From the NCBI GenBank assembly GCA_020852355.1, contig JADZBA010000097.1:1-43433 (forward strand): 43,433 nucleotides of DNA. Reading direction: 5' to 3'. This stretch comes from Alphaproteobacteria bacterium (lineage in GTDB: Bacteria; Pseudomonadota; Alphaproteobacteria; ATCC43930; Allostellaceae). The position numbers and the translations under genes are program-made. The number at the start of each line of letters is the position of its first letter. The first letter of the stretch is position 1. This document shows positions 550-14,531 of this stretch, one piece after another. The notes beneath the pieces were generated by a model. That model saw nothing but the letters and a program-made list of their open reading frames with translations, was not told the DNA's origin and searched no databases.

Positions 550-563
550 TTGAGTTAAATCAA
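550..563. promoter_or_regulatory. FNR/FixK-type box TTGAGTTAAATCAA
   Basis: Perfect TTGA-N6-TCAA palindrome in the intergenic region, 97 nt from the RTX-protein start codon. Confidence 0.7.
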
Positions 564-613
564 TCGAGAGCCGAATACTTCGGGCGGCAAGCAATATCGA
601 ATGCGGGTCATTC

Positions 614-1642
614 TCACGGAGCAGGAATGCGCAGCGAGCGGACCCGCGCATCGGAACGCAACGAGGCGGGAGGATCGAGGATGACCTCCTCGCCGCCGGA
701 GAGGCCGTCGAGAATCTCCACGACGTCGCGCCCGCGCAGCCCCACGCTCACCCGGCGATGGGCCGCACGGCCGCCCTCGACGATCCAGAGCCCGGCACCG
801 GCGAGGGCGGCGCGCGGCACGAGCAGCGCCCGCTCGGCGGCGCGGACGACGATGTTCACCTCCACGGTCGTGCCGAGGGGCAGCGGCTCGCGGGCGGGCG
901 ACGGCTCGTCCAGGACGATCTTGATGCGATAGGCGCGCTGCCCGGCGTCCCCGAAGGGCGTCAGCTCGCTGATGCGGCCGGGGAAGGAAACGCCGGGAAA
1001 GGCATCGGCCGCCGCCAGCGCGCGCTGGTGGAGACGGACCCGGGGGAAGTACTCCTCGTCGATATCCGCGACGATCTGGCGCTGGGTCGGGCCGCCGATC
1101 CAGAAGAGGACCATACCGGCGTCGACGACCTCTCCGACCCGGCCCTCCCGTCGCAGGATGCGGCCGGAGATCGGCGCGGTCACCCGCGCCTCCCGCAGCG
1201 ACTCCATCGCCGCGCTCCGCAGCGCCCGCGCCTGGTCGAGGTCGCTGTCCACCAGCTCCAGCGCCTTGCGGCTGGCGATCCCGCCGCCGACCAGGACGCG
1301 CAGCCGGTCGCGTTCGGCTTCGAGATACCGGATGCGCGATTCGATCTCGACCAGCCGCGCCCGCCGCTTCTGGTCGTCGATCTGCGCCAACAGGTCGCCC
1401 GCGACGACGTCCTGCCCCTCCTCGCGCAGCAGCGACAGCAGCCGCCCCGTGGCTTCCGTGCGGACCTTGGCCCATTCGATCGGCTCGACGACGCCCGTGG
1501 CATAGACGCCCTCCGCCAGCGATCCCCAGCGCGGCGTCGTGGTACGCATCAGGGGCGGCGCGAGGACCCGCTCGTCGAGGAGCCAGCCCAGCGCGGCGGC
1601 GGCCGCGACGACCAGGAGGAACGTCAGGCCGTAGCGGCGCAT
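614..1642 (-). CDS. HlyD/MFP-family periplasmic adaptor subunit
   Basis: 342 aa; N-terminal TM, lipoyl-like halves (VRTEATGRLLSLLREEGQDVVAGDLLAQIDD...VTAPISGRILRREGRVGEVVDAG). Confidence 0.85.
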   Translation of the reverse strand: MRRYGLTFLLVVAAAAALGWLLDERVLAPPLMRTTTPRWGSLAEGVYATGVVEPIEWAKVRTEATGRLLSLLREEGQDVVAGDLLAQIDDQKRRARLVEIESRIRYLEAERDRLRVLVGGGIASRKALELVDSDLDQARALRSAAMESLREARVTAPISGRILRREGRVGEVVDAGMVLFWIGGPTQRQIVADIDEEYFPRVRLHQRALAAADAFPGVSFPGRISELTPFGDAGQRAYRIKIVLDEPSPAREPLPLGTTVEVNIVVRAAERALLVPRAALAGAGLWIVEGGRAAHRRVSVGLRGRDVVEILDGLSGGEEVILDPPASLRSDARVRSLRIPAP

Positions 1643-1712
1643 CGCCCGCAGACATCCATGCGTCGGCGGAAGCGGGATGCGATTCCGCCGGTGCAGCGAC
1701 CGCTGGCCACGG

Positions 1713-2423
1713 TCATGCCGTCCTCACCCGATCCTCGACGATCCGCCCGTCCCGCAGGTGAACCCGCCGCCGGGCGCGCTCGGCCAATACGATATCGTGA
1801 GTGACGGCGATCACCGTACGCTGCTCCTCCCGCACCAGACGATCGAGCATGTCGAAGACGAGCGCGGCGTTTCGCGTGTCGAGATTGCCGCTCGGCTCGT
1901 CGGCCAGAATGTAGTCCGGATCGTTGGCCAGCGCGCGCGCCAGGGCGGCACGCTGGCGCTGCCCGCCGGAGAGCTGGTCGGGCTTCTTGGCGGCTTCGCC
2001 GTCGAGATGGAGCGAAGCCAGGATCGCCATCGCCCTCTCGCGCATCTTCCTCACGGTGGTGCCCCCCTTGCGCCGCATCGGGATCAGCATGTTCTCGATC
2101 ACGGTGAACTCCGACAGCAGGAAGTGGAACTGGAAGAGGAACCCGATCTTGCGCAGGCGCAGCGTCGCCAGCGCCTCGCCGTCGACCGCGGAGGTGACGG
2201 TCCCGTCGATGTCCACAACCCCCGCGGTCGGCAGGTCGAGGGCGCCGAGAAGATAGAGCAACGAGGACTTGCCCGAGCCGGACGGCCCGGTGATGGCGAG
2301 GAACTCGCCGCGCCCGATCGTCAGGTCGATGTCCCGGACGAGCGTCACCGGCACGACGCCCGGCAGGACGCGCGACACCCCGGCCGCGACGATCCGCGAA
2401 GGCGGTTCAGGCCCTTCGGTCAT
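1713..2423 (-). CDS. ABC transporter ATP-binding protein, LolD/MacB/DevA type
   Basis: Start ATG at 2423 (MTEGPEPPSRIVAAGVS...); Walker A GPSGSGKSS, signature LSGGQRQR, Walker B YILADEPSGNLD. Confidence 0.88.
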   Translation of the reverse strand: MTEGPEPPSRIVAAGVSRVLPGVVPVTLVRDIDLTIGRGEFLAITGPSGSGKSSLLYLLGALDLPTAGVVDIDGTVTSAVDGEALATLRLRKIGFLFQFHFLLSEFTVIENMLIPMRRKGGTTVRKMRERAMAILASLHLDGEAAKKPDQLSGGQRQRAALARALANDPDYILADEPSGNLDTRNAALVFDMLDRLVREEQRTVIAVTHDIVLAERARRRVHLRDGRIVEDRVRTA

Positions 2424-2461
2424 GGCCCGAACCCGCGATCGGGCGACGGGACGGCCGCCTC

Positions 2462-4903
2462 TCAGCCTTCGCCGGACGAGGCACCCCGGTCCCGCTCGGC
2501 TGCCATGGCCTGCTCGGCCGCATGGACCGCGGTCATGGTGCGCAGGACGCTGCCGGGATTGACGCTGATCGAGTCGATCCCGAGGCGGGTCAGGAAGACG
2601 GCGATCTCCGGGTAGTTGGCCGGCGCCTCGCCGCAGATGCCGACGTGGCGGTGGTTGCGCCGGGCGCCGGCGACGGCGAGGCGGAACATCTCCAGCATGC
2701 CGGGATCGCGCTCGTCGAAATCGAAGGCGACGATCTCCGAATCGCGGTCGACCCCGAGGGTGAGCTGGGTGAGGTCGTTGGAGCCGATGGAGAACCCGTC
2801 GAACAGCGCGGCGAAGGCATCGATCTGGATGACGTTGTTCGGAATCTCGCACATCACGTAGATCTCCAGCCCGTCCGCGCCGCGCGCGAGGCCGTGTTCC
2901 GCCATCGCGGCCAGAACGCGCCGCGCCTCCTCGACCCGGCGGCAGAAGGGTACCATGATGCGCAGGTTGGTCAGGCCCATGTCCTCGCGGACGCGGCGCA
3001 GGGCGGCGCATTCCAGGGCGAAGCCCGCGGCGTAGGCGGGGTGCGCGTAGCGCGCGGCGCCGCGAAACCCGAGCATGGGATTCTCTTCGGCGGGCTCGAA
3101 GCACGCGCCGCCGAGCAGGCGGGCATACTCGTTGGTCTTGAAGTCGGACAGCCGGACGATGACGGGCTTGGGATGGAAGGCGGCGGCGATCGTGCCGATC
3201 CCTTCCGACAGGGTCCGGACGAAGAAGTCGCTCGGGCGGGCATGGCCCCTGGTACGATGCGCGATCGCCGCGCGATCCGCCGCCGCCGTCACCTTGTCGG
3301 GCTGCGCCAGGGCCATGGGATGAATGCCGATCTGCTCGCTGATGATGAACTCCATGCGGGCCAGCCCGACGCCCTCGTGCGGACGCATGGCGGTGCGAAA
3401 GGCGAGATCGGGGTTGCCCAGGTTGACCATGATGGGGGTGCGCGGCCGCGCCAGCGTCCCCAGATCGACGACCGACGTCTCGAAGGCGACCGCACCGGCG
3501 TAGACGTGCCCCGTCTCGCCCTCGGCACAGGACACCGTCACGGTCGCGCCGGGCGCCAGCCGGGTGGTCGCATCGTCCGCCCCGACGATCGCCGGCACGC
3601 CCAGCTCGCGCGCCACGATCGCGGCGTGGCAGGTACGGCCGCCGCGATCGGTGACGATGGCGGCCGCCCCCTTCATCACCGGCTCCCAGTCCGGGCTGGT
3701 CGTCTCGGCCACCAGCACCTCGCCGGGACGGAACGCGACCAGGTCCTGCGGGCCGGCGACCACGCGGACCCTGCCGGATGCGATCCTCTCGCCGATCGCG
3801 CGGCCCAGGGCGAGGACGGGGCCGGTTCCCGTGAGGGTCTGCGTCTCGAAGCTCTGCGGCGCCATCCGCGAGGCCACCGTCTCGGGCCGCGCCTGCACCA
3901 CGTAGAGCGCCCCGTCCGGCCCGTCCTTGGCCCATTCGATGTCCATCGGGACGGGATGGCCGGCGCGCCCGGAATAGTGATCCTCGATCCGCAGCGCGTA
4001 GTCGGCGAGGCGCATCACGTCGGCGTCGTCGATGCAGAAGCGCTCGCGATCGGCGGCCGGCGTCGGCTCGTTGGCCGTGCTGCCGGCGCCATGGCCGCCG
4101 GCGTAGATCATGCGCATCTGCTTGCCGCCCATCGCCCGGCGCAGCACGCAGCGGCGGCCCGCGCGGAAGGTCGGCTTGTGGACGTAGAACTCGTCCGGAT
4201 CGACCCGGCCCTGCACGACGTTCTCGCCCAGCCCGTAGGATCCGGTGACGAAGACGACGTCGCGAAATCCCGATTCCGTGTCGAGGGTGAAGATGACGCC
4301 GCTCGACGCCAGGTCCGAGCGCACCATCTTCATGACGCCGACGGAGAGCGCGACCTTGAGATGATCGAACCCGTTGTCGTTGCGGTACACGATGGCGCGA
4401 TCGGTGAAGATCGAGGCGCAGCAGCGGCGACAGGCCTCGACGAGGTCCTCGGCCCCGCGGACGTTGAGGAAGCTCTCGTGCTGGCCGGCGAAGCTCGCGG
4501 TCGGCAGGTCCTCGGCGGTGGCCGAGCTGCGCACGGCCAGCGCCACGTCGGCGCCGTAGTCGTGCCGCAGCCGATCCCAGGTCGCGAGGATCTGGTCGCG
4601 CAGGAAGCCGGCGCCGGCCGCCTCGTAGACGATGGCGCGCGCTTCGGCGGCGTGCCGCGCGAGGCGGCCCACGTCGTCCTTGCCGAGCCCCGCCAGCAAC
4701 GGCGCCAGGCGACGCCACGCATCGGCTGCCGTAAGAGCATCGCGATAGGCCTGGGCGGTGAGCGCGAAACCATTGGGTACCAGCACGCCGCTGCCCGAGA
4801 GGGCCGAGTACATCTCGCCGAGCGAGGCATTCTTGCCGCCGACCAGCGCCACGTCCTCGGAGCGGATCTCGCTGAACCAGCGGATGTAGTTCGGAGGATT
4901 CAT
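2462..4903 (-). CDS. ppsA: phosphoenolpyruvate synthase
   Basis: Starts MNPPNYIRWFSEIRSEDVALVGGKNASLGEMYSAL; phosphohistidine motif GGRTCHAAIVARELGVPAIVG; C-terminal VGICGEAPANYPE. Confidence 0.92.
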   Translation of the reverse strand: MNPPNYIRWFSEIRSEDVALVGGKNASLGEMYSALSGSGVLVPNGFALTAQAYRDALTAADAWRRLAPLLAGLGKDDVGRLARHAAEARAIVYEAAGAGFLRDQILATWDRLRHDYGADVALAVRSSATAEDLPTASFAGQHESFLNVRGAEDLVEACRRCCASIFTDRAIVYRNDNGFDHLKVALSVGVMKMVRSDLASSGVIFTLDTESGFRDVVFVTGSYGLGENVVQGRVDPDEFYVHKPTFRAGRRCVLRRAMGGKQMRMIYAGGHGAGSTANEPTPAADRERFCIDDADVMRLADYALRIEDHYSGRAGHPVPMDIEWAKDGPDGALYVVQARPETVASRMAPQSFETQTLTGTGPVLALGRAIGERIASGRVRVVAGPQDLVAFRPGEVLVAETTSPDWEPVMKGAAAIVTDRGGRTCHAAIVARELGVPAIVGADDATTRLAPGATVTVSCAEGETGHVYAGAVAFETSVVDLGTLARPRTPIMVNLGNPDLAFRTAMRPHEGVGLARMEFIISEQIGIHPMALAQPDKVTAAADRAAIAHRTRGHARPSDFFVRTLSEGIGTIAAAFHPKPVIVRLSDFKTNEYARLLGGACFEPAEENPMLGFRGAARYAHPAYAAGFALECAALRRVREDMGLTNLRIMVPFCRRVEEARRVLAAMAEHGLARGADGLEIYVMCEIPNNVIQIDAFAALFDGFSIGSNDLTQLTLGVDRDSEIVAFDFDERDPGMLEMFRLAVAGARRNHRHVGICGEAPANYPEIAVFLTRLGIDSISVNPGSVLRTMTAVHAAEQAMAAERDRGASSGEG

Positions 4904-5000
4904 CTGTCGTCCCGCTCCTGGCCCGTGCTCCGGGCGACTGTTCGCCCTCGTGAAACGGGGCCCGGCGCGCATCATCCTCGCTGGAACGTCGCGCGATCGA

Positions 5001-5014
5001 TTGAGGAAGATCAA
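5001..5014. promoter_or_regulatory. FNR/FixK-type box TTGAGGAAGATCAA
   Basis: Perfect TTGA-N6-TCAA palindrome between divergent ppsA (start 4903) and the 5063 ORF; 97 nt from the ppsA start codon. Confidence 0.75.
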
Positions 5015-5062
5015 CACGCGCGCCGACCGTGCGAGGATAGCCTGCAGCACAAGGAGCATCCC

Positions 5063-5335
5063 ATGCCGCAGCCGCACACCGATCAGAGTCCCAACCAGGT
5101 CGAGGCGACGCACGAGGACGTGATCCGCATCCTCGGCGATCGCGAGGACGCCACCGTCGTCGCGATCCTGGGCCTGCACCCCACGATCGGCGACCTCGAG
5201 GCCGTGTCGATGCGCATGGCGGGCATCGACGACGTCCTCGACGGAGAGCCGGCGCCGCGGTCGGGCATCGTCGCCGCGATCGCCGACATGCTGGCGCCGG
5301 ACGACGAGGACGAGCCGTCCCCGTCGCCGCGCTAA
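5063..5335 (+). CDS. small acidic hypothetical protein (90 aa)
   Basis: ATG at 5063 preceded by AAGGAG; MPQPHTDQSPNQVEATHEDVIRILGDREDATVVAILGLHPTIGDLEAVSMRMAGIDD...; the upstream extension of the ORF is antisense to ppsA. Confidence 0.7.
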   Translation: MPQPHTDQSPNQVEATHEDVIRILGDREDATVVAILGLHPTIGDLEAVSMRMAGIDDVLDGEPAPRSGIVAAIADMLAPDDEDEPSPSPR

Positions 5336-5352
5336 CCGCGCCCCGGAACCCG

Positions 5353-5937
5353 ATGGACCGGGAGCTGGAACGGCTGCGCAGCAGGCTTCGCGAGCTGGAA
5401 GGCCAGATCGAGCGGAAGGTGGAGAGCCGCGGCGCAGAGCTTCGCGAGCGGCTGGAGCGGGAGAAGGTCGTCTTCGAACGCAGCGTCCTGGAGCAGCACC
5501 GCCGGATCAAGGTCGGCTTGGTCCGGTTCCTCAGGGAATCGCCGTTCCTCACCCTCGTAACGGCACCGGTGATCTACGGACTGGTGGTTCCCCTTCTCCT
5601 CCTGGATGCCGCGCTCGCCGTCTATCAGGGCATCTGCTTCCGCGCCTGGGGCATCGCGCGCGTGCGCCGATCGGACTATATCGTGCTCGACCGCCATCGC
5701 CTCGCCTACCTGAACGCGATCCAGAAGCTGAATTGCGTCTATTGCGGCTACGCCAACGGGGTGGTCGCGCTGGCCCGCGAGCTGGCGAGCCGCACCGAGC
5801 AGTACTGGTGCCCGATCCGGCACGCGCAGCGTATCCGCGGCGCCCACGACCGCTATGGCCGCTTCCTCGCCTACGGCGATGCCGAAGGATTCCATGCGCG
5901 TCTCGACGAGTTGCGGGACGAGCTGAAGCGACTGTGA
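5353..5937 (+). CDS. conserved hypothetical membrane protein
   Basis: 194 aa; coiled-coil N-terminus, hydrophobic segment (FLTLVTAPVIYGLVVPLLLLDAALAVYQGICF), conserved-looking LNCVYCGYANGVVALARELASRTEQYWCPIRHA; 17 bp after the 5063 gene. Confidence 0.8.
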   Translation: MDRELERLRSRLRELEGQIERKVESRGAELRERLEREKVVFERSVLEQHRRIKVGLVRFLRESPFLTLVTAPVIYGLVVPLLLLDAALAVYQGICFRAWGIARVRRSDYIVLDRHRLAYLNAIQKLNCVYCGYANGVVALARELASRTEQYWCPIRHAQRIRGAHDRYGRFLAYGDAEGFHARLDELRDELKRL

Positions 5938-5946
5938 CGGCCGACG

Positions 5947-5972
5947 GCCGGGCCGCGGCGACGCGGCCCGGC
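5947..5972. terminator. bidirectional hairpin between convergent genes
   Basis: 11-bp perfect stem GCCGGGCCGCG / CGCGGCCCGGC with a GCGA loop, between stop codons of 5353..5937 (+) and hsp20 (-). Confidence 0.65.
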
Positions 5973-5983
5973 TCATGCGAGGA

Positions 5984-6517
5984 TCAGCCGGCCTTGACGG
6001 CGATCTTCTGCTCGTTCTTCGGCGCCTCGGCCGTCTTCGGCAGCTTCACGGTCAGCACGCCCTTGGCGAAGGTCGCCTCGATCTTCGCCGCGTCGACCCC
6101 GTCGGGCACCTGGAAGGCACGCATGAAGGAGCCGTACCGGCGCTCCGAGAGATAGTAGTCCTTCTTGCGCTCCTCCTTCTCTTCCTTCTTCTCGCCCTTG
6201 ATCGACAGCGTGCCGTTGGACAGCTTGATCTCGATGTCCTTCTCCTCCATCCCCGGCAGCTCGACGGTGATCTCGAATTCCTTCTCCCTCTCCGCGACGT
6301 CGACCGCGGGGGCCATGGCCCACGCGCCCTCGCGCGGCCACGTCAGCTCGAGCGCGGACGGGCCGAAGGGAAATCGCCACGCCCCCTGGTTGAATCCTTC
6401 GAATACGCGATCGATCTCGCGTCGCAGGCTCTCGAAGGGCCGCCAGGGCGCCGGCGGCGCGGCGGCAGACGTCGACTTCTTCTCGGTGTCGACGGGCACT
6501 TTCGTGGCTTCGGCCAT
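5984..6517 (-). CDS. Hsp20/alpha-crystallin family small heat shock protein
   Basis: MAEATKVPVDTEKKS...VDVAEREKEFEITVELPGMEEKDIEIKLSNGTLSIKGEKKEEKEE...GVLTVKLPKTAEA: alpha-crystallin domain. Confidence 0.92.
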   Translation of the reverse strand: MAEATKVPVDTEKKSTSAAAPPAPWRPFESLRREIDRVFEGFNQGAWRFPFGPSALELTWPREGAWAMAPAVDVAEREKEFEITVELPGMEEKDIEIKLSNGTLSIKGEKKEEKEERKKDYYLSERRYGSFMRAFQVPDGVDAAKIEATFAKGVLTVKLPKTAEAPKNEQKIAVKAG

Positions 6518-6657
6518 GTCGATGCTCCTCCAGGTTGCGATAGACGAACTCTTCGGAAGGACGCTGGGCCCGACGGCACGCCGGACGCGCGCGGCGGCGC
6601 CTCGGTTCGGGCGGGTCCAGCCGATCGTCATTTCATGCGAACGCCGCCGATCGTGCC

Positions 6658-6671
6658 TTGACCTGCATCAA
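6658..6671. promoter_or_regulatory. FNR/FixK-type box TTGACCTGCATCAA
   Basis: Perfect TTGA-N6-TCAA palindrome between divergent hsp20 (start 6517) and nadE (start 6746). Confidence 0.7.
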
Positions 6672-6745
6672 CGGCGGTCGTACCGGCGAGCGGCGCGCGT
6701 GCGAGAATGCGCAGTCTGCCCAATCGAGGATCGAGATTGTCGGCC

Positions 6746-8791
6746 ATGACGGAATTCGCCTCGCTGTACCGGCACGACTTCCTGCGGTTGTCCGCGTGCG
6801 TGCCGCGCGCCCGGGTCGGGGATCCGGACTTCGCCGTGGCCGAGACCCTGCGCCTCGCCGAAGAGGGGCATGCCGACGGCACGGCGATCATGCTGTTCCC
6901 GGAGCTGGGGATCTCGTCCTACGCCATCGACGACCTGCTGTTCCAGGACGCCCTGCTGGACGCGGTCGAACGGGCCGTCGGCCGGCTCGCCGAGGCGTCG
7001 CGCCGCCTCCACCCGGTGCTGGTCGTCGGCGCGCCGCTGCGCTGCGACGGGCGCCTGTTCAACGCGGCCGTGGTGCTGCATCGCGGCGCCGTCCTCGGCG
7101 TGGTGCCGAAGACCTACCTGCCGAACTACCGCGAATTCTACGAGCGCCGCCACTTCACGTCCGGCGCCGGCGTCATCGGCCGCCACCTCGCCCTCGCGGG
7201 TCGCGAGGTGCCCTTCGGGGTCGACCTGCTGTTCCGCTCGTCGGGATCGGTGCCCTTCACGTTCCATGTGGAGATCTGCGAGGACATCTGGGTCCCCCTG
7301 CCCCCGTCGACGCGGGCGGCGCTCGCCGGCGCGGAGGTGCTGCTGAACCTCTCGGCGTCCAACATCACGATCGGCAAGGCGGACACGCGGCGGCTGCTGT
7401 GCGCGAGCCATTCCGCCCGCGCCGCCGCGGTCTACGCCTACTCGGCGGCGGGCCCCGGCGAATCGACCAACGACCTCGCCTGGGACGGTCATGCGGCCAT
7501 CTTCGAGCTCGGCGACCCGCTCGGCGAGACCGAGCGCTTCCCCCGGGATTCGACGTCGGTCACCGCCGACGTCGACCTCGGCCGCCTGCGCCAGGAGCGC
7601 ATGCGCCTCAACAGCTTCGGCGACTGCGCGCACGAAGAGGCGGGCCGGGGGCCGACCTTCCGCACGCTGCGCTTCCCCTTCGACGCGCCGGACCGCCCGG
7701 TCGGTTTGCGCCGGACGATCGCGCGCTTTCCCTTCGTCCCGGCCGACCCCGGGCGGCTGCGCGAGGACTGCTACGAGGCGTACAACATCCAGATCCAGGG
7801 GCTGGCCAAGCGCCTCGCCGCGACCGGCCTGCAGCGCGCCGTGATCGGCGTGTCCGGCGGCCTCGATTCGACGCAGGCGCTGATCGTCGCCACGCGGGCC
7901 ATGGACCTGCTCGGCCGCAGCCGCAGCGACGTCCTCGCCTACACGCTTCCCGGCTTCGCCACATCGGCGGAGACCAAGGCCAACGCGTGGGCGCTGATCC
8001 GCGCGCTGGGCGTCACCGGCGCCGAGATCGACATCCGCCCGTCGGCGCGGCAGATGCTGGCCGACATCGGCCATCCCTACGCGAGCGGCGAGGCCGTCTA
8101 CGACGCCACGTTCGAGAACGTGCAGGCCGGCCTGCGTACCGACTACCTCTTCCGCCTCGCGAACCACAATCGCGGCCTGGTCGTCGGCACCGGCGATCTC
8201 TCCGAGCTGGCGCTCGGCTGGTGCACCTTCGGCGTCGGCGACCACATGTCCCACTACAACGTCAACGCGTCGGTTCCCAAAACGCTGATCCAGCATCTCA
8301 TCCGCTTCGTCGCCGCCTCCGGCGACGCGAGCGCGGAGACCGCACGCATCCTCCACGCCATCCTCGCGACCGAGATATCGCCGGAGCTGGTGCCGCCCTC
8401 CGCCGGCCGGGCGATCCAGTCGACGCAGCAGATCGTCGGTCCCTACGCGCTGCAGGACTTCAGCCTCTTTTACCTGACGCGCTACGGCTTCCGGCCCTCG
8501 AAGATCGCGTTCCTGGCGCATCACGCATGGAGCGACGCCGAACGCGGGGCGTGGCCGGCCGAGCTGCCGCGGGGCGAACGCGTCGCCTACTCCCTGGCCG
8601 AGATCCGGCATTGGCTGACCGTGTTCCTGACGCGGTTCTTCGCCAGCCAGTTCAAGCGCTCGACCCTGCCGAACGGCCCGAAGCTCTCGTCCGGCGGTTC
8701 GCTCTCACCACGGGGGGACTGGCGGGCGCCCTCGGACGGCGACGCCGCGATCTGGCTCGCCGAGCTCGCGGAGAACGTGCCGGCGGCCTGA
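6746..8791 (+). CDS. nadE: glutamine-dependent NAD(+) synthase (nitrilase domain plus synthetase domain)
   Basis: [59 protein letters not shown]...; nitrilase domain followed by [21 protein letters not shown] (PP-loop) and [29 protein letters not shown]. Confidence 0.93.
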
Positions 8792-8860
8792 GCCGGACAC
8801 GGCCGCGGTCGCCGGGAGAGCATGCTTCCAGGTGCCTCGCGGCTGCGATGGAGACGTGTG

Positions 8861-9889
8861 ATGGCGGAGTCCCGGATCTGGTCACCTTCCGATGTCCGGC
8901 CGGTCGCCGGCGACCGGCTGCGCCTGTTCGCGCTCGCCGGCAGCGACCGGCTCGGCCGCGAGATCGGCGATCTGCTCGGCCAGCCGCTGGCGCGGCACGA
9001 GGAACGCGACTTCGAGGACGGCGAGCACAAGGCAAGGCCGCTCGACGCCGTCTGCGGGGCCGACGTCCATGTCGTGCACAGCCTTCATGGCGGTCCGACG
9101 GGAAGTGCCAACGACCGGCTGTGCCGGCTGCTCTTCTTCATCGGCGCGCTGAAGGACGCGGGCGCGGCACGGGTGACGGCGGTGGTCCCCTATCTCTGCT
9201 ACGCGCGGAAGGACCGCCGTACCAAGCCGAACGACCCGGTGACGACGCGCTATGTCGCCGCCCTGTTCGAGGCGGTCGGCACCGATGCCGTCGTCGCGCT
9301 GGAGGTCCACAACGACGTCGCCTTCGAGAATGCGTTCCGCCGCCGCGCCGTGGCGCTGACGGCGGCCCCCCTGCTGATCGCCACTGTCGCCGCCGGGCTC
9401 GGCGACGAGCGGCTCTGCGTCGTCTCGCCGGACCTCGGCGGCGGCAAACGGGCCGAACGCTTCCGGGAGGGCCTGGAGGCGGCGACGGGACGCCCGATCG
9501 GCAAGGCGTTCGCAGAGAAGCACCGCAGCGCCGGGGTCGTCTCGGGCGACCTGTTCGCCGGCGACGTCGCCGGCGCCACCTGCATCCTCGTCGACGATCT
9601 CGTCAGCACGGGCGGCACGCTGGTGCGGGCCGCCCGCGCCGCGCGCGAGCGCGGCGCACGGCGGGTGATCGCCTGCGCCGCCCATGGGCTGTTCAGCAGC
9701 GGCGCCGCGGAGGCGCTCGCCGACCCGGCGATCGACCGGATCCTGGTGACCGACAGCGTGTCGCCGTTCCGGCTGCCGCCCGGCGGCGCGCGCGACAAGA
9801 TCGCGCACATCGCGGCCGCACCCCTCCTGGCCGAGGCCATCGGCCGTCTCCACGAGGGCCGGCCGCTCACGGACCTGATGGTCTTCTGA
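8861..9889 (+). CDS. ribose-phosphate pyrophosphokinase (PRPP synthetase-like)
   Basis: RKDRRTKPNDPVTTRYVAALFEAVGTDAVVALEVHN and PRPP-loop CILVDDLVSTGGTLVRAA; start taken at internal ATG (MAESRIWSP). Confidence 0.87.
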   Translation: MAESRIWSPSDVRPVAGDRLRLFALAGSDRLGREIGDLLGQPLARHEERDFEDGEHKARPLDAVCGADVHVVHSLHGGPTGSANDRLCRLLFFIGALKDAGAARVTAVVPYLCYARKDRRTKPNDPVTTRYVAALFEAVGTDAVVALEVHNDVAFENAFRRRAVALTAAPLLIATVAAGLGDERLCVVSPDLGGGKRAERFREGLEAATGRPIGKAFAEKHRSAGVVSGDLFAGDVAGATCILVDDLVSTGGTLVRAARAARERGARRVIACAAHGLFSSGAAEALADPAIDRILVTDSVSPFRLPPGGARDKIAHIAAAPLLAEAIGRLHEGRPLTDLMVF

Positions 9890-10934
9890 GGAGACGCTCC
9901 AGCCGCGCGGCGTCGGCCTCGGCCTGGCGGAGATAGAGGCGCGCGAGGCGCGGCCACTTCTCCGGGGTGCGTGGCGACGGATCGAGGAGGTGGGCGATCG
10001 AGAGGCGCGCGCGCAGCGTGGCGCGATGGCACCGGTAAAACAGGAACAGGCCCGTCGACGGGCGATCGTCCAGGAGCCCCGCCAGGCGTCGCCGCAGCCG
10101 CTCGCCCACCCAGGGCGCGCCCAGACGGGAGCACTCGAGATCCAGGAATGCGATCTCGTCCAGGGGATCGAGCGCCCGCAGGCGCGCATCGAACTCCAGG
10201 CAGTCGATGATCGTGACGGGCTCGCGGAGCCAGACATGCTCCGGGCGAAGATCGCCGTGCGCGTCGACGATGAAGCGCCGGCGCACCCGCCGCACGATCG
10301 CGTGGGCGCGCCGGGCGAGGAATCGCCGTTGGGCCCGGTCGATCCGCTCGACGGCTCCCCGCGGCAGGCCGAGGCGCGGATCGAGCAGCACGCGCCTGTT
10401 GCGGACGAGCGCCTTCCGCCACTCCGCGAGAGCGACTTCCGGGCGCGAGCTGACCCGACGGGCATGGCGATAGAAGGCCGCCAGGGCCACCGCGATGCGG
10501 TCCACGTCGACCGGCCGCAGCCGGCCCTCCAGCAGTGCCCGCTCCAGCGTCCCATCCTCGTCGAGCCGCCGCATCACCACCAACCAGTCCACGACGGTCC
10601 CCGCACCGCCCAGGGCGAGGCCGGCCGGCGACAGCGTGAGCGGCAGCACGCCGAGATACACGTCGGGCGCCAGCCGCCGGTTGAGCCGATCCTCGGCGCG
10701 GCAGGCCGCCGCCCGCCGCTCCAGGCTGGAGAAGTCGAGATAGGGGAAGCGGACGGGCTTCTTCAGCTTGAAGACGCGATCGCCGGCCAGGAACACCCAG
10801 GACATGTGGGTCTCCCGCGCGGCCACCTCGTCGACGCCCGGCGGATAGCTGCCGGACGCGCCGAGGAAGCGGACCTTCGCCTCCAGGGTCGCCTCATTCT
10901 CGTTCCCGAAGGCCGGCTGTGCCCGCGTCGACAT
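9867..10934 (-). CDS. aminoglycoside-phosphotransferase-like (APH/COG2187-type) protein
   Basis: MSTRAQPAFGNENEATLEAKVRFLGASGSYPPGVDEVAARETHMSWVFLAGDRVFKLKKPVRFPYLDFSSLERR...IVDAHGDLRPEHVWLREPVTIIDCLEFD (APH-like HGDLxxxHV...IxDxxEF). 3' end overlaps the PRPP synthetase gene by 23 bp (convergent). Confidence 0.8.
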   Translation of the reverse strand: MSTRAQPAFGNENEATLEAKVRFLGASGSYPPGVDEVAARETHMSWVFLAGDRVFKLKKPVRFPYLDFSSLERRAAACRAEDRLNRRLAPDVYLGVLPLTLSPAGLALGGAGTVVDWLVVMRRLDEDGTLERALLEGRLRPVDVDRIAVALAAFYRHARRVSSRPEVALAEWRKALVRNRRVLLDPRLGLPRGAVERIDRAQRRFLARRAHAIVRRVRRRFIVDAHGDLRPEHVWLREPVTIIDCLEFDARLRALDPLDEIAFLDLECSRLGAPWVGERLRRRLAGLLDDRPSTGLFLFYRCHRATLRARLSIAHLLDPSPRTPEKWPRLARLYLRQAEADAARLERLLRRPSGP

Positions 10935-10977
10935 ACCCCCCACCCGATGGACGCTATCGGGATTGTCGCAACCGCCG

Positions 10978-10991
10978 TTGATGCGGATCAA
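10978..10991. promoter_or_regulatory. FNR/FixK-type box TTGATGCGGATCAA
   Basis: Perfect TTGA-N6-TCAA palindrome between divergent genes starting at 10934 (-) and 11048 (+). Confidence 0.75.
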
Positions 10992-11047
10992 TGGACGATC
11001 GACGCGCCGGACGATGATGGCGGTTCGTTCGACGGGAGGGCGGAACC

Positions 11048-11782
11048 ATGCCGCTCGGCAATCACTCGGATATCCCTTCAGCGCGCGACGGCCCGATCGC
11101 CGTCGTCGAGCGGAAGGTCGCCATTCCGCCGCTCGGTCTGGCAGGCACCCTGCGCCGTCCGGCCGCGGCCAGCGCCCTGGTCGCGTTCGCGCACGGCAGC
11201 GGCTCCAGCCGACTCAGTCCGCGCAACGTCCAGGTCGCCGACGCGCTGAACCGCCGGCGCATCGCGACCCTGCTGTTCGACCTTCTGCTGCCGGAGGAGG
11301 GCGAGGACCGGCGTCACGTCTTCGCCGTCGACCTCCTCGCCGTCCGGCTGATCGAGACGGTCCGTTGGCTCGACCGCGATGCCGATGTCGGCGCGCTGCC
11401 GCTCGGCCTGTTCGGGGCCAGCACCGGCGCGGCCGCTGCCCTGATCGCGGCCGCCGCGCTCGGCGGACGCGTCGGCGCGGTGGTGTCCCGCGGCGGGCGT
11501 CCCGATCTCGCCGGCGAGGCGCTCGGCGGGGTCGCGGCGCCGACCCTGCTGATCGTGGGCGGCGCCGATGCCGGCGTCATCGAGCTCAACCGCTGGGCGT
11601 TCGAGCGCCTCGGCGGAGCGAAGGCTCTCGAGATCGTGCCCGGGGCGACCCACCTCTTCCCCGAGCCCGGCGCGCTCGAGGCGGTGATCGATCTCGCGGC
11701 GGCGTGGTTCGAGCGTCATCTGGGCAGGCGGCAGCATCCACGGCAGGGCCGTGCCGAGCGACGGGGGGATGGAGATTCATGA
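11048..11782 (+). CDS. dienelactone hydrolase-like / alpha-beta hydrolase family protein
   Basis: 244 aa; LVAFAHGSGSSRLSPRN, LGLFGASTGAAAALIAAA (GxSxG-like), VVSRGGRPDLAGEAL..APTLLIVGGADAGVIELN, GATHLFPEPGALE. Confidence 0.85.
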   Translation: MPLGNHSDIPSARDGPIAVVERKVAIPPLGLAGTLRRPAAASALVAFAHGSGSSRLSPRNVQVADALNRRRIATLLFDLLLPEEGEDRRHVFAVDLLAVRLIETVRWLDRDADVGALPLGLFGASTGAAAALIAAAALGGRVGAVVSRGGRPDLAGEALGGVAAPTLLIVGGADAGVIELNRWAFERLGGAKALEIVPGATHLFPEPGALEAVIDLAAAWFERHLGRRQHPRQGRAERRGDGDS

Positions 11783-13812
11783 GGCGTTTCGCAGACAGGT
11801 CGGACGCCGGCCGCCGGCTGGCGCATGCCCTGGAAGATTACCGTCGCCGCCGGCCGGTGATCCTCGCCCTGCCGCGGGGTGGCGTCCCGGTCGCCGCGGA
11901 GGTCGCCAAGGCCTTCGACGCTCCCCTCGACCTTCTCCTCGTCCGCAAGATCGGCGTCCCGATGCAGCCGGAACTCGCGATGGGTGCGGTGGTGGACGGC
12001 ACGGCGCCGATCGTCGTGCGCAACGACGACGTCATCGATCTCGTGGGAGTGTCCGACGACGAGTTCGATGCCGTGTGTCGCGAACAGCTCGTCGAGATCG
12101 AACGGCGCCGCGCGCGATACATCGGCAGCCGTCCGCGTGCGGAGGTGACCGGGCGGGTCGTGATCGTCATCGACGACGGAATTGCGACCGGGGCTACCAT
12201 GCGGGCGGCGTTGCGGGCGACGCGCCAGCGCGCACCGCAGGAGCTCGTGCTGGCCGTGCCGGTGGCGCCGGCCGAGACGATCGACGATCTCCGCCGGGAG
12301 GTCGACGCCGCGATCTGCCTGGAGACGCCCCGGCCGTTCGGTGCCATCGGCGCGTTCTACGAGGACTTCCGGCAGGTGAGCGACGACGAGGTCATCGCCG
12401 ATCTCGCCCGACTTCCCGCGACGCGGAGCGTCGCCGTGAATGAGGTCGCCCGAATGTATCCCGCTGCGAGCCCCCTGCTGACCGACCTCTACCAGCTCAA
12501 CATGCTCCAGGCCTATCTGGAGCATGGGCGGACCGGGACGGCCGTCTTCGAGTTCTTCGTGCGCCGGCTGCCCGCCCGACGTGGATTCCTGGTCGCCGCC
12601 GGGCTGGAGCAGGTGCTGGACCACCTCGCGGCGCTGCGTTTCGCTGCCGACGAGCTCGAATGGCTGCGGCGCAGCGGGCGCTTCGGATCGGCGCTCATCG
12701 ACTATCTCGCCGGCTTTCGCTTCACCGGCGATGTCGATGCCATGCCCGAGGGCACGGTCTTCTTCGCGGATGAGCCGATCCTGCGGGTGACGGCACCGCT
12801 CCCCGAGGCGCAGCTCGCCGAGACGCGCCTCGTCAACATCCTGCATTTCCAGTCGCTCGTCGCCGCCAAGGCGGCCCGCATGGTTCTCGCGGCCCCGGGC
12901 AAGCCGCTGATCGATTTCGGCCTGCGCCGCGCGCACGGGGCCGAGGCCGGGATCATGGCGGCCCGCGCGAGCTATCTCGCGGGCTTCGCCGGTACCGCGA
13001 CGGTGCTCGCCGGGAAAGAGTTCAGCATTCCGATCTTCGGCACGATGGCGCACTCCTTCGTCCAGGTGCACGACGACGAAACGGCCGCGTTCGAGGCCTT
13101 CGCCCGTTCGCGGCCCGACGATCTCGTGCTGCTGATCGACACCTACGACACGGAGGCGGCGGCGCGGAAGGTCGTGAGGCTGGCGTCGCGACTGAAGGCG
13201 CAGGGGATCTCGGTTCGCGGCGTGCGCCTCGACAGCGGCGACCTGATCGGCTTGTCCGGAAGCGTCCGGCGGATACTCGACGAGGGCGGCCTCGCGGACG
13301 TGACGATCTTCGCCAGTGGCGGTCTCGACGAGGACGCGCTGGCGAGAATCGTGGCGGCCGGCGCCCCCATCGACGGCTTCGGCATCGGGACGAGCCTGAC
13401 CACGTCCTCGGACGTGCCGGCCCTCGATTGCGCCTACAAGCTCCAGGAGTACGCAGGGATCGCCCGCCGCAAGCGATCGGCCGGCAAGGCCACCCTGCCC
13501 GGCCGCAAGCAGGTCTGGCGCCGCTTCGACGACAGGGACCGCATGACGGACGATGTCCTGTCGACGGCCGACGACCGGCAGCGGGGGACGCCCCTGCTGC
13601 AGCCGGTCATGCGCGACGGCCGGCGGCTCGCCCCGTCGCCGCCCCTTGCCGAGGTCCGCCGTCGGGCCGCGGCCGGGTTGGCGCAACTCCCGGGCGCGCT
13701 GCGACGGCTGGAGGGCACGCCGGCCTATCCCGTCGCCGTCGGGTCGAAGCTGGTCGCCCTGACGGAGCAGGTCGATCGCGACCATGCCGCGCGGGAGCGG
13801 GCGCTCGCCTGA
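11779..13812 (+). CDS. fusion protein: phosphoribosyltransferase (COG1926-like) - nicotinate phosphoribosyltransferase
   Basis: Single open frame of 677 aa from ATG 11779 (overlaps upstream stop as ATGA). N-terminal type I PRTase (VIDDGIATGATMRAAL; AFYEDFRQVSDDEVIADLAR) then NAPRTase (SPLLTDLYQLNMLQAYLEHGRTGTAVFEFFVRRLP...ETRLVNILHFQSLVAAKAARM...IDFGLRRAHGAEAG...GVRLDSGDL...DGFGIGTSLTTSSD..AYKLQEYAG). Confidence 0.87.
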   Translation: MRRFADRSDAGRRLAHALEDYRRRRPVILALPRGGVPVAAEVAKAFDAPLDLLLVRKIGVPMQPELAMGAVVDGTAPIVVRNDDVIDLVGVSDDEFDAVCREQLVEIERRRARYIGSRPRAEVTGRVVIVIDDGIATGATMRAALRATRQRAPQELVLAVPVAPAETIDDLRREVDAAICLETPRPFGAIGAFYEDFRQVSDDEVIADLARLPATRSVAVNEVARMYPAASPLLTDLYQLNMLQAYLEHGRTGTAVFEFFVRRLPARRGFLVAAGLEQVLDHLAALRFAADELEWLRRSGRFGSALIDYLAGFRFTGDVDAMPEGTVFFADEPILRVTAPLPEAQLAETRLVNILHFQSLVAAKAARMVLAAPGKPLIDFGLRRAHGAEAGIMAARASYLAGFAGTATVLAGKEFSIPIFGTMAHSFVQVHDDETAAFEAFARSRPDDLVLLIDTYDTEAAARKVVRLASRLKAQGISVRGVRLDSGDLIGLSGSVRRILDEGGLADVTIFASGGLDEDALARIVAAGAPIDGFGIGTSLTTSSDVPALDCAYKLQEYAGIARRKRSAGKATLPGRKQVWRRFDDRDRMTDDVLSTADDRQRGTPLLQPVMRDGRRLAPSPPLAEVRRRAAAGLAQLPGALRRLEGTPAYPVAVGSKLVALTEQVDRDHAARERALA

Positions 13813-13828
13813 CGGGAACGTACCCCGC

Positions 13829-14389
13829 CTACGGCATCCTGGACTTGAGCCGCAGGATCTCGCCGTCGACGACGAAGGTACCCCGGCCGCGGTGGTGCAG
13901 GGTCTTCGGCGGCTGGCGTCCCGGACGCTTCCACGCCTTCACCACCTCGAGCACGAAGAGGTTGTACTTCCGGACGAGGCGCGTGTCGGCGACCCGGCAT
14001 TCGAGGTTGGCGAAGCATTCCGCGATCAGCGGTGCCGCGACGCGTTCGGCCGGCAGCGACGTCAGCCCGAAGGCCGCGAACTTGTCGGTGTCCCGCCCCG
14101 AGCAGTTGCCGACGCCCACCACGACCGCGGCCAGGGTCGCCGGCGGGACGGCGATCACGCATTCCCGCGTCGCGCGCAGCGCGGCATGGCTGTAGTCGCC
14201 GCTGCTCACCACGCAGGCCACCAGCGGCGGCGTGAACTCGATCATCATGTGCCACGACATGGTCATGACGTTGGCGCAGCCGCGATGGCTGGTCGCGAGC
14301 AGCACCACCGGACCCGGCTCCAGCAGTTGGTAGACCTCGCCGAGAGGAAGCTCGCGAAGCCGCGGCGACGGTCGAGCGGGGAGCGTCAT
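13829..14389 (-). CDS. flavin reductase family (FMN-binding split-barrel) protein
   Basis: MTLPARPSPRLRELPLGEVYQLLEPGPVVLLATSHRGCANVMTMSWHMMIEFTPPLVACVVSSGDYSHAALRATRECVIAVPP...; start at CAT 14387-14389. Confidence 0.85.
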   Translation of the reverse strand: MTLPARPSPRLRELPLGEVYQLLEPGPVVLLATSHRGCANVMTMSWHMMIEFTPPLVACVVSSGDYSHAALRATRECVIAVPPATLAAVVVGVGNCSGRDTDKFAAFGLTSLPAERVAAPLIAECFANLECRVADTRLVRKYNLFVLEVVKAWKRPGRQPPKTLHHRGRGTFVVDGEILRLKSRMP

Positions 14390-14517
14390 CGACCGCGCGC
14401 TCCCCGGCCGCCGGCGACCATTGAAGGCGCCAACCGACCGCCGGGGACGAGGATCTGCCCGGACATGGTACCCTCCCACTGTCTGCCGGGAAGGTGCCTG
14501 CGCCTGGCCCGGCGACA

Positions 14518-14531
14518 TTGATCGAGATCAA
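14518..14531. promoter_or_regulatory. FNR/FixK-type box TTGATCGAGATCAA
   Basis: Perfect TTGA-N6-TCAA palindrome between the flavin reductase gene (start 14389, -) and the IclR gene (start 14697, +). Confidence 0.75.

Follow-up and report, generated by a model that had tools for sequence, protein, structure and literature searches.

A nicotinate phosphoribosyltransferase in one frame with a COG1926-type phosphoribosyltransferase in a relative of Stella vacuolata: a probable deletion-born fusion

The window analysed here, a stretch of 43,433 nucleotides from an uncultured alphaproteobacterium akin to the star-shaped bacterium Stella, carries at positions 11779-13812 of the plus strand a single open frame of 677 aa (73.3 kDa), in which a phosphoribosyltransferase (PRT) forms the N-terminal part and a complete nicotinate phosphoribosyltransferase (NAPRTase) the C-terminal part. 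Most probably this is a genuine fusion, which arose when the loss of some 900-925 bp joined the neighbouring PRT and NAPRTase genes in one lineage. Gene order is conserved with a congeneric genome on both sides of the junction, a block is missing from the window between them, the frame is open throughout, and no other fusion of this kind occurs in what was searched. The protein is thus best explained as a singleton of two ordinary enzymes, probably still allowing separate synthesis of the NAPRTase. The architecture is new and of modest biological interest, its weight being limited because it is a singleton in an unverified assembly; it would nevertheless offer a clear snapshot of the birth of a fusion, a stop codon and a promoter being lost together when the DNA between two adjacent genes is deleted.

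The fused frame and its domains

One uninterrupted frame for a PRT and a full NAPRTase had been described in an earlier note on this DNA, and the 677-aa frame with its Pfam and NCBIfam matches confirms that description: PF00156 aligns with residues 14-170, and PF17767, PF04095 and PF17956 with residues 233-661. The PRT comprises codons M1-S217 (11779-12429, plus strand), as delimited by PF00156, PDB 1wd5 and homology to S. vacuolata. Its membership of the COG1926/TT1426 family is indicated by the match to PF00156 (1.7e-16), by similarity to 1wd5 over residues 3-209 (E 6.3e-39) and by the PRPP loop VIVIDDGIATGATM. While whole-length similarity and the PRPP-binding loop are common to both, the PRT of the window differs from 1wd5 in being fused at its C-terminus, with the natural short tail and stop lost.

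The NAPRTase part (12454-13812, plus strand; 452 aa, 48.7 kDa) scores 643.5 bits against the NCBIfam profile NF006696, for which the cut-off is 503, covers positions 9-449 of the 451 in that profile, and aligns with PDB 2f7f (E 7.5e-80), conserved motifs included. On this score it belongs to the nicotinate phosphoribosyltransferases, with a predicted activity on nicotinate and PRPP. It resembles the other members of NF006696 (the PRK09243 group) and the structurally solved relative 2f7f in its full-length match, three Pfam domains and motifs, but carries an additional N-terminal PRT, attached through eight residues, VAVNEVAR, encoded at 12430-12453 (plus strand). This linker corresponds to the untranslated leader of the NAPRTase gene in S. 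vacuolata, with which the alignment begins at 12430. A mixed alignment of PRT and NAPRTase sequences was rejected as input for structure prediction, the PRT rows being misplaced and merely 10-29% identical to the fusion.

Origin of the fusion

The main comparison genome was that of Stella vacuolata ATCC 43931, which belongs to the same genus as the assembly containing the window. Nucleotide alignment establishes synteny on both sides of the junction (window 8877-12416 at 71.6% and 12430-13778 at 77.5% identity), and in S. vacuolata the PRT and NAPRTase genes are separate, with 925 bp extra exactly at the position of the junction. This block contains the last PRT codons with the stop, genes for ChaB (PF06150) and DUF3775 (PF12616), both on the minus strand, and the region preceding NAPRTase, in which a FixK/FNR-like box lies. 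The same order (PRT+/chaB-/DUF3775-/NAPRTase+) recurs in a Bradyrhizobium MAG, L045, which the NAPRTase tree places in one supported clade (99/88) together with S. vacuolata, L044 and the window. The most plausible reading is accordingly that the ancestor of this clade had the block, its loss in the window being the likelier derived state. More widely, its presence between the two genes varies among Bradyrhizobium and MAGs (L056, L082, L092, L041, L042, L120), which suggests repeated loss or gain, and in L041, L042, L082 and L092 PRT and NAPRTase are direct neighbours with intact stops and short spacers.

The most probable course of events is that a deletion of about 925 bp took out the PRT stop codon, chaB, the DUF3775 gene and the NAPRTase upstream region, so that the 24-bp NAPRTase leader now continues the PRT frame from about codon 217. 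The breakpoint probably lies at about 12429/12430, its placement being uncertain within about 12417-12441: the nucleotide alignment of the PRT ends at 12416, a resemblance at the level of residues (LPATRS in the window, FPMGKS in S. vacuolata) reaches to about 12429, and from 12430 the sequence follows the NAPRTase leader of that species. The former leader, 12430-12453, happens to be open in the NAPRTase frame, as does its counterpart in S. vacuolata. Such a deletion is enough to eliminate the PRT stop and to bring both genes into one frame, without any one-base indel. The overall reading of the earlier note thus stands in part: that two formerly separate genes have been fused is supported, the genes being separate in every relative examined, but the single-base indel at a GTGA-coupled pair to which their fusion was ascribed finds no support, the missing block being sufficient. 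Once the deletion is accepted, an in-frame join would be a roughly one-in-three outcome that requires nothing further, and given the adjacent but separate pairs in the four relatives named above, one in-frame join among such events calls for no special cause.

The features named in the earlier note, GTG at 12436-12438 overlapped by TGA at 12437-12439 and an in-frame ATG at 12454, are all present. As judged from conservation in sequence, NAPRTase natively begins at ATG 12454 and not at GTG 12436. A start codon stands at the position aligned with this ATG in 65 of 110 rows (a few duplicates among them), and it is preceded by a Shine-Dalgarno sequence, GAGGT at 12443-12447, matched by GGAGGT at equal distance in S. 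vacuolata. GTG 12436 does not coincide with an aligned start in that species, where the in-frame GTG sits nine codons upstream of the ATG, as against six in the window. Because the conserved start has its own Shine-Dalgarno sequence, we judge the GTGA motif (12436-12439, plus strand) to be incidental; with eight in-frame GTG codons within 11779-13812 that have A as the next base, the motif alone is in any case weak evidence. The adjacent pairs in L041, L042, L082 and L092 show no GTGA overlap and keep a stop and a short spacer, so that the locus does not belong with GTGA-coupled gene pairs, and the conserved ATG together with the lack of GTGA in these pairs led us to reject such coupling as the ancestral state. 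The GTGA gene junction proposed in the earlier note is thus not supported, while its suggestion that NAPRTase could still be translated separately from ATG 12454 gains support from the conserved start and its Shine-Dalgarno sequence.

More unusual is that, around the junction, the two other reading frames both end within 27 nt (TGA 12437 and TGA 12441), a configuration seen at only 1.65% of positions in the frame. This closure marks the stretch as a former non-coding leader and is, we think, what the author of the earlier note picked up on. It could also speak for the best-surviving alternative, to which we give a small but not negligible chance, namely that the block deletion is real but that the living organism has two genes in one operon, with the end of the PRT inside the ribosome-binding site of NAPRTase or immediately ahead of it, and that a one-base sequencing or assembly error mimics the fusion. 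The four relatives in which the genes are adjacent yet separate would fit such an arrangement, as would the alignment of the leader, which is one base shorter in the window than in S. vacuolata and so leaves room for a later indel. This alternative, however, requires that another event struck the same stretch of some 25 bp, and explains closed frames that the former non-coding leader explains already. Moreover, 18 kb of comparable coding sequence from the same assembly, aligned against Stella proteins, showed no frameshift, which bounds the probability of an error here below 1%, a loose upper bound given that these selected stretches form a small sample.

That a misassembly of the contig hides a chaB/DUF3775 block which in reality lies at the junction is highly improbable. 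The source is a single genome in 566 contigs, which counts against the fusion, with 4.57% contamination, and a DUF3775 homologue is present on another contig, C103. The stretch of C103, however, matches S. vacuolata over DUF3775 only, its flanks being unrelated and without chaB, PRT or NAPRTase, so that it was also rejected as a relocated copy of the deleted block; chaB was not found elsewhere in the genome, although with a query of 70 aa this empty result is weak. Least probable of all, if by little, is a genuine recent one-base mutation fusing two GTGA-coupled genes, as the earlier note had proposed from the GTG in the NAPRTase frame and its overlapping TGA, for against it stand the conserved ATG, the lack of such an overlap in relatives with adjacent genes, and the distance of ~900 bp between the genes in the sister species, which means that the two genes may never have been coupled at all.

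Distribution of the architecture

A profile search of the open frames upstream of NAPRTase in 113 locus rows brought up no second PRT-NAPRTase fusion, nor was one seen in a sample of 61 relatives or among the strong matches listed from samples at class level (386 genomes) and phylum level (399 genomes), these genome samples being partly overlapping. Likewise, no place in 72,556 plasmids covered 80% of the query, and literature searches for a described PRT-NAPRTase fusion gave nothing relevant. Conservation of the fused frame in many species, which the earlier note had proposed as the mark of a genuine fusion, is thus not seen: the window is the sole case among the sequences searched, and PRT-NAPRTase is not an established multidomain architecture.

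Long open frames upstream of NAPRTase in L049 (617 aa), L116, L126, L125, L115 and L004 were rejected as further cases, the profile search detecting no PRT in them. The 617-codon frame of L049, a MAG labelled Candidatus Odyssella, lies upstream of position 3001 in frame with the NAPRTase and may be meaningless. The genome of the window holds a second PRT gene, 62% identical, on contig C33 (365-994 of locus L160).

The PRT has a different fusion partner elsewhere. A locus from the same order, L019, encodes PRT and hydrolase at 823-2118 as a single stop-free frame, and Rv0571c of Mycobacterium tuberculosis has the domain make-up of a PRT-hydrolase fusion as well. These proteins resemble that of the window in that the same PRT is joined to the product of another gene of this neighbourhood module; they differ in that the partner is the hydrolase and not NAPRTase, the hydrolase of the window being a separate upstream gene.

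Neighbourhood and low-oxygen NAD salvage

The gene preceding the fused frame encodes an alpha/beta hydrolase of the dienelactone-hydrolase type (11048-11782, plus strand; weak Pfam matches, Hydrolase_4 0.0011 and DLH 0.08), whose end overlaps the PRT start by ATGA at 11779-11782, and the hydrolase-PRT order is found also in S. vacuolata and others. Further upstream lie genes for a glutamine-dependent NAD(+) synthase (6707-8791, plus strand; NF002730, 1042.8 bits against a cut-off of 473) and a ribose-phosphate diphosphokinase, the PRPP synthase (8822-9889, plus strand; TIGR01251, 224 bits against 113), and a kinase-like gene (9867-10991, minus strand) without Pfam or NCBIfam match, presumably COG2187-like, which adjoins the operon in S. 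vacuolata too. Downstream, a flavin reductase-like gene (13829-14518, minus strand; PF01613, 9.9e-29) converges on the fusion.

When the consensus TTGAT-N4-ATCAA was scanned with at most one mismatch, two perfect FNR/FixK boxes were found, one (TTGATGCGGATCAA, 10978-10991) separating the hydrolase-PRT-NAPRTase operon from the kinase-like gene, which is divergent to it, and the other (14518-14531) at the flavin reductase-like gene. Three more boxes, each with one mismatch, lie at 550, 5001 and 6658. Five boxes in 14.6 kb represent a clear enrichment over the ~0.13 expected from sampled Stella DNA (P ~3e-7). The listed TTG start of the kinase-like gene falls inside the box at 10978, and its true start is therefore probably internal. 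Scans of 10900-13950 for consensus sigma-70 promoters and terminators found nothing. A FixK/FNR-like box stands directly upstream of NAPRTase in S. vacuolata, L045 and L120; since the window lost this box with the block, the deletion probably also shifted NAPRTase under the box of the operon at 10978.

Taken together, the hydrolase-PRT-NAPRTase genes beside PRPP synthase and NAD synthase, with their FNR/FixK boxes, look like a low-oxygen NAD-salvage set, a function suggested by the families, the neighbourhood and the boxes. A low-oxygen regulator of the FNR/FixK type would bind the box at 10978 and drive the three genes as one message; ribosomes starting at the PRT would continue to yield the 73-kDa two-domain protein, while the retained GAGGT...ATG 12454 would probably give a free 49-kDa NAPRTase as well, and NAPRTase would convert nicotinate and PRPP to NaMN, supplying the NAD synthase encoded nearby.

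Comparable sets are known. The DosR regulon of M. tuberculosis includes the PRT Rv0571c, the NAPRTase Rv0573c/pncB2 and Rv2004c (PMC5309233, PMC9031469), a nicotinate phosphoribosyltransferase gene is among the determinants of anoxic survival in Burkholderia cenocepacia H111 (PMC9104464), and an expression table for B. contaminans includes another (PMC4981469). The likeness to the mycobacterial set lies in a NAPRTase and the same type of PRT within an oxygen-responsive set; in the window, by contrast, boxes of the FNR/FixK type take the place of DosR, and a single frame encodes both PRT and NAPRTase. The neighbourhood, the boxes and the fusion would tie to NAD salvage an uncharacterised COG1926 PRT that appears in hypoxia sets from mycobacteria to alphaproteobacteria. 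We regard as rather unlikely the stronger reading that the protein is a stable enzyme with two functions, whose PRT is physically tied to NAPRTase so that both act jointly in low-oxygen NAD salvage, the same deletion having fused the genes and exchanged the FixK-type promoter of NAPRTase for that of the hydrolase-PRT operon. Were it true, the PRT would be pointed to the same pathway as NAPRTase.

On a larger scale, the part of the window from 550 to 14531 holds the box cluster and genes of somewhat lower GC3 than those in the right part, among them PEP synthase, Hsp20, NAD synthase, PRPP synthase, hydrolase-PRT-NAPRTase and flavin reductase, and looks, by its gene content and boxes, like a low-oxygen island. 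Of the three other Stella genomes searched, two lack PRT and NAPRTase. The NAD synthase gene had no S. vacuolata match at the threshold used, and has a 75% match in a Stella genome (G001) that is without PRT and NAPRTase.
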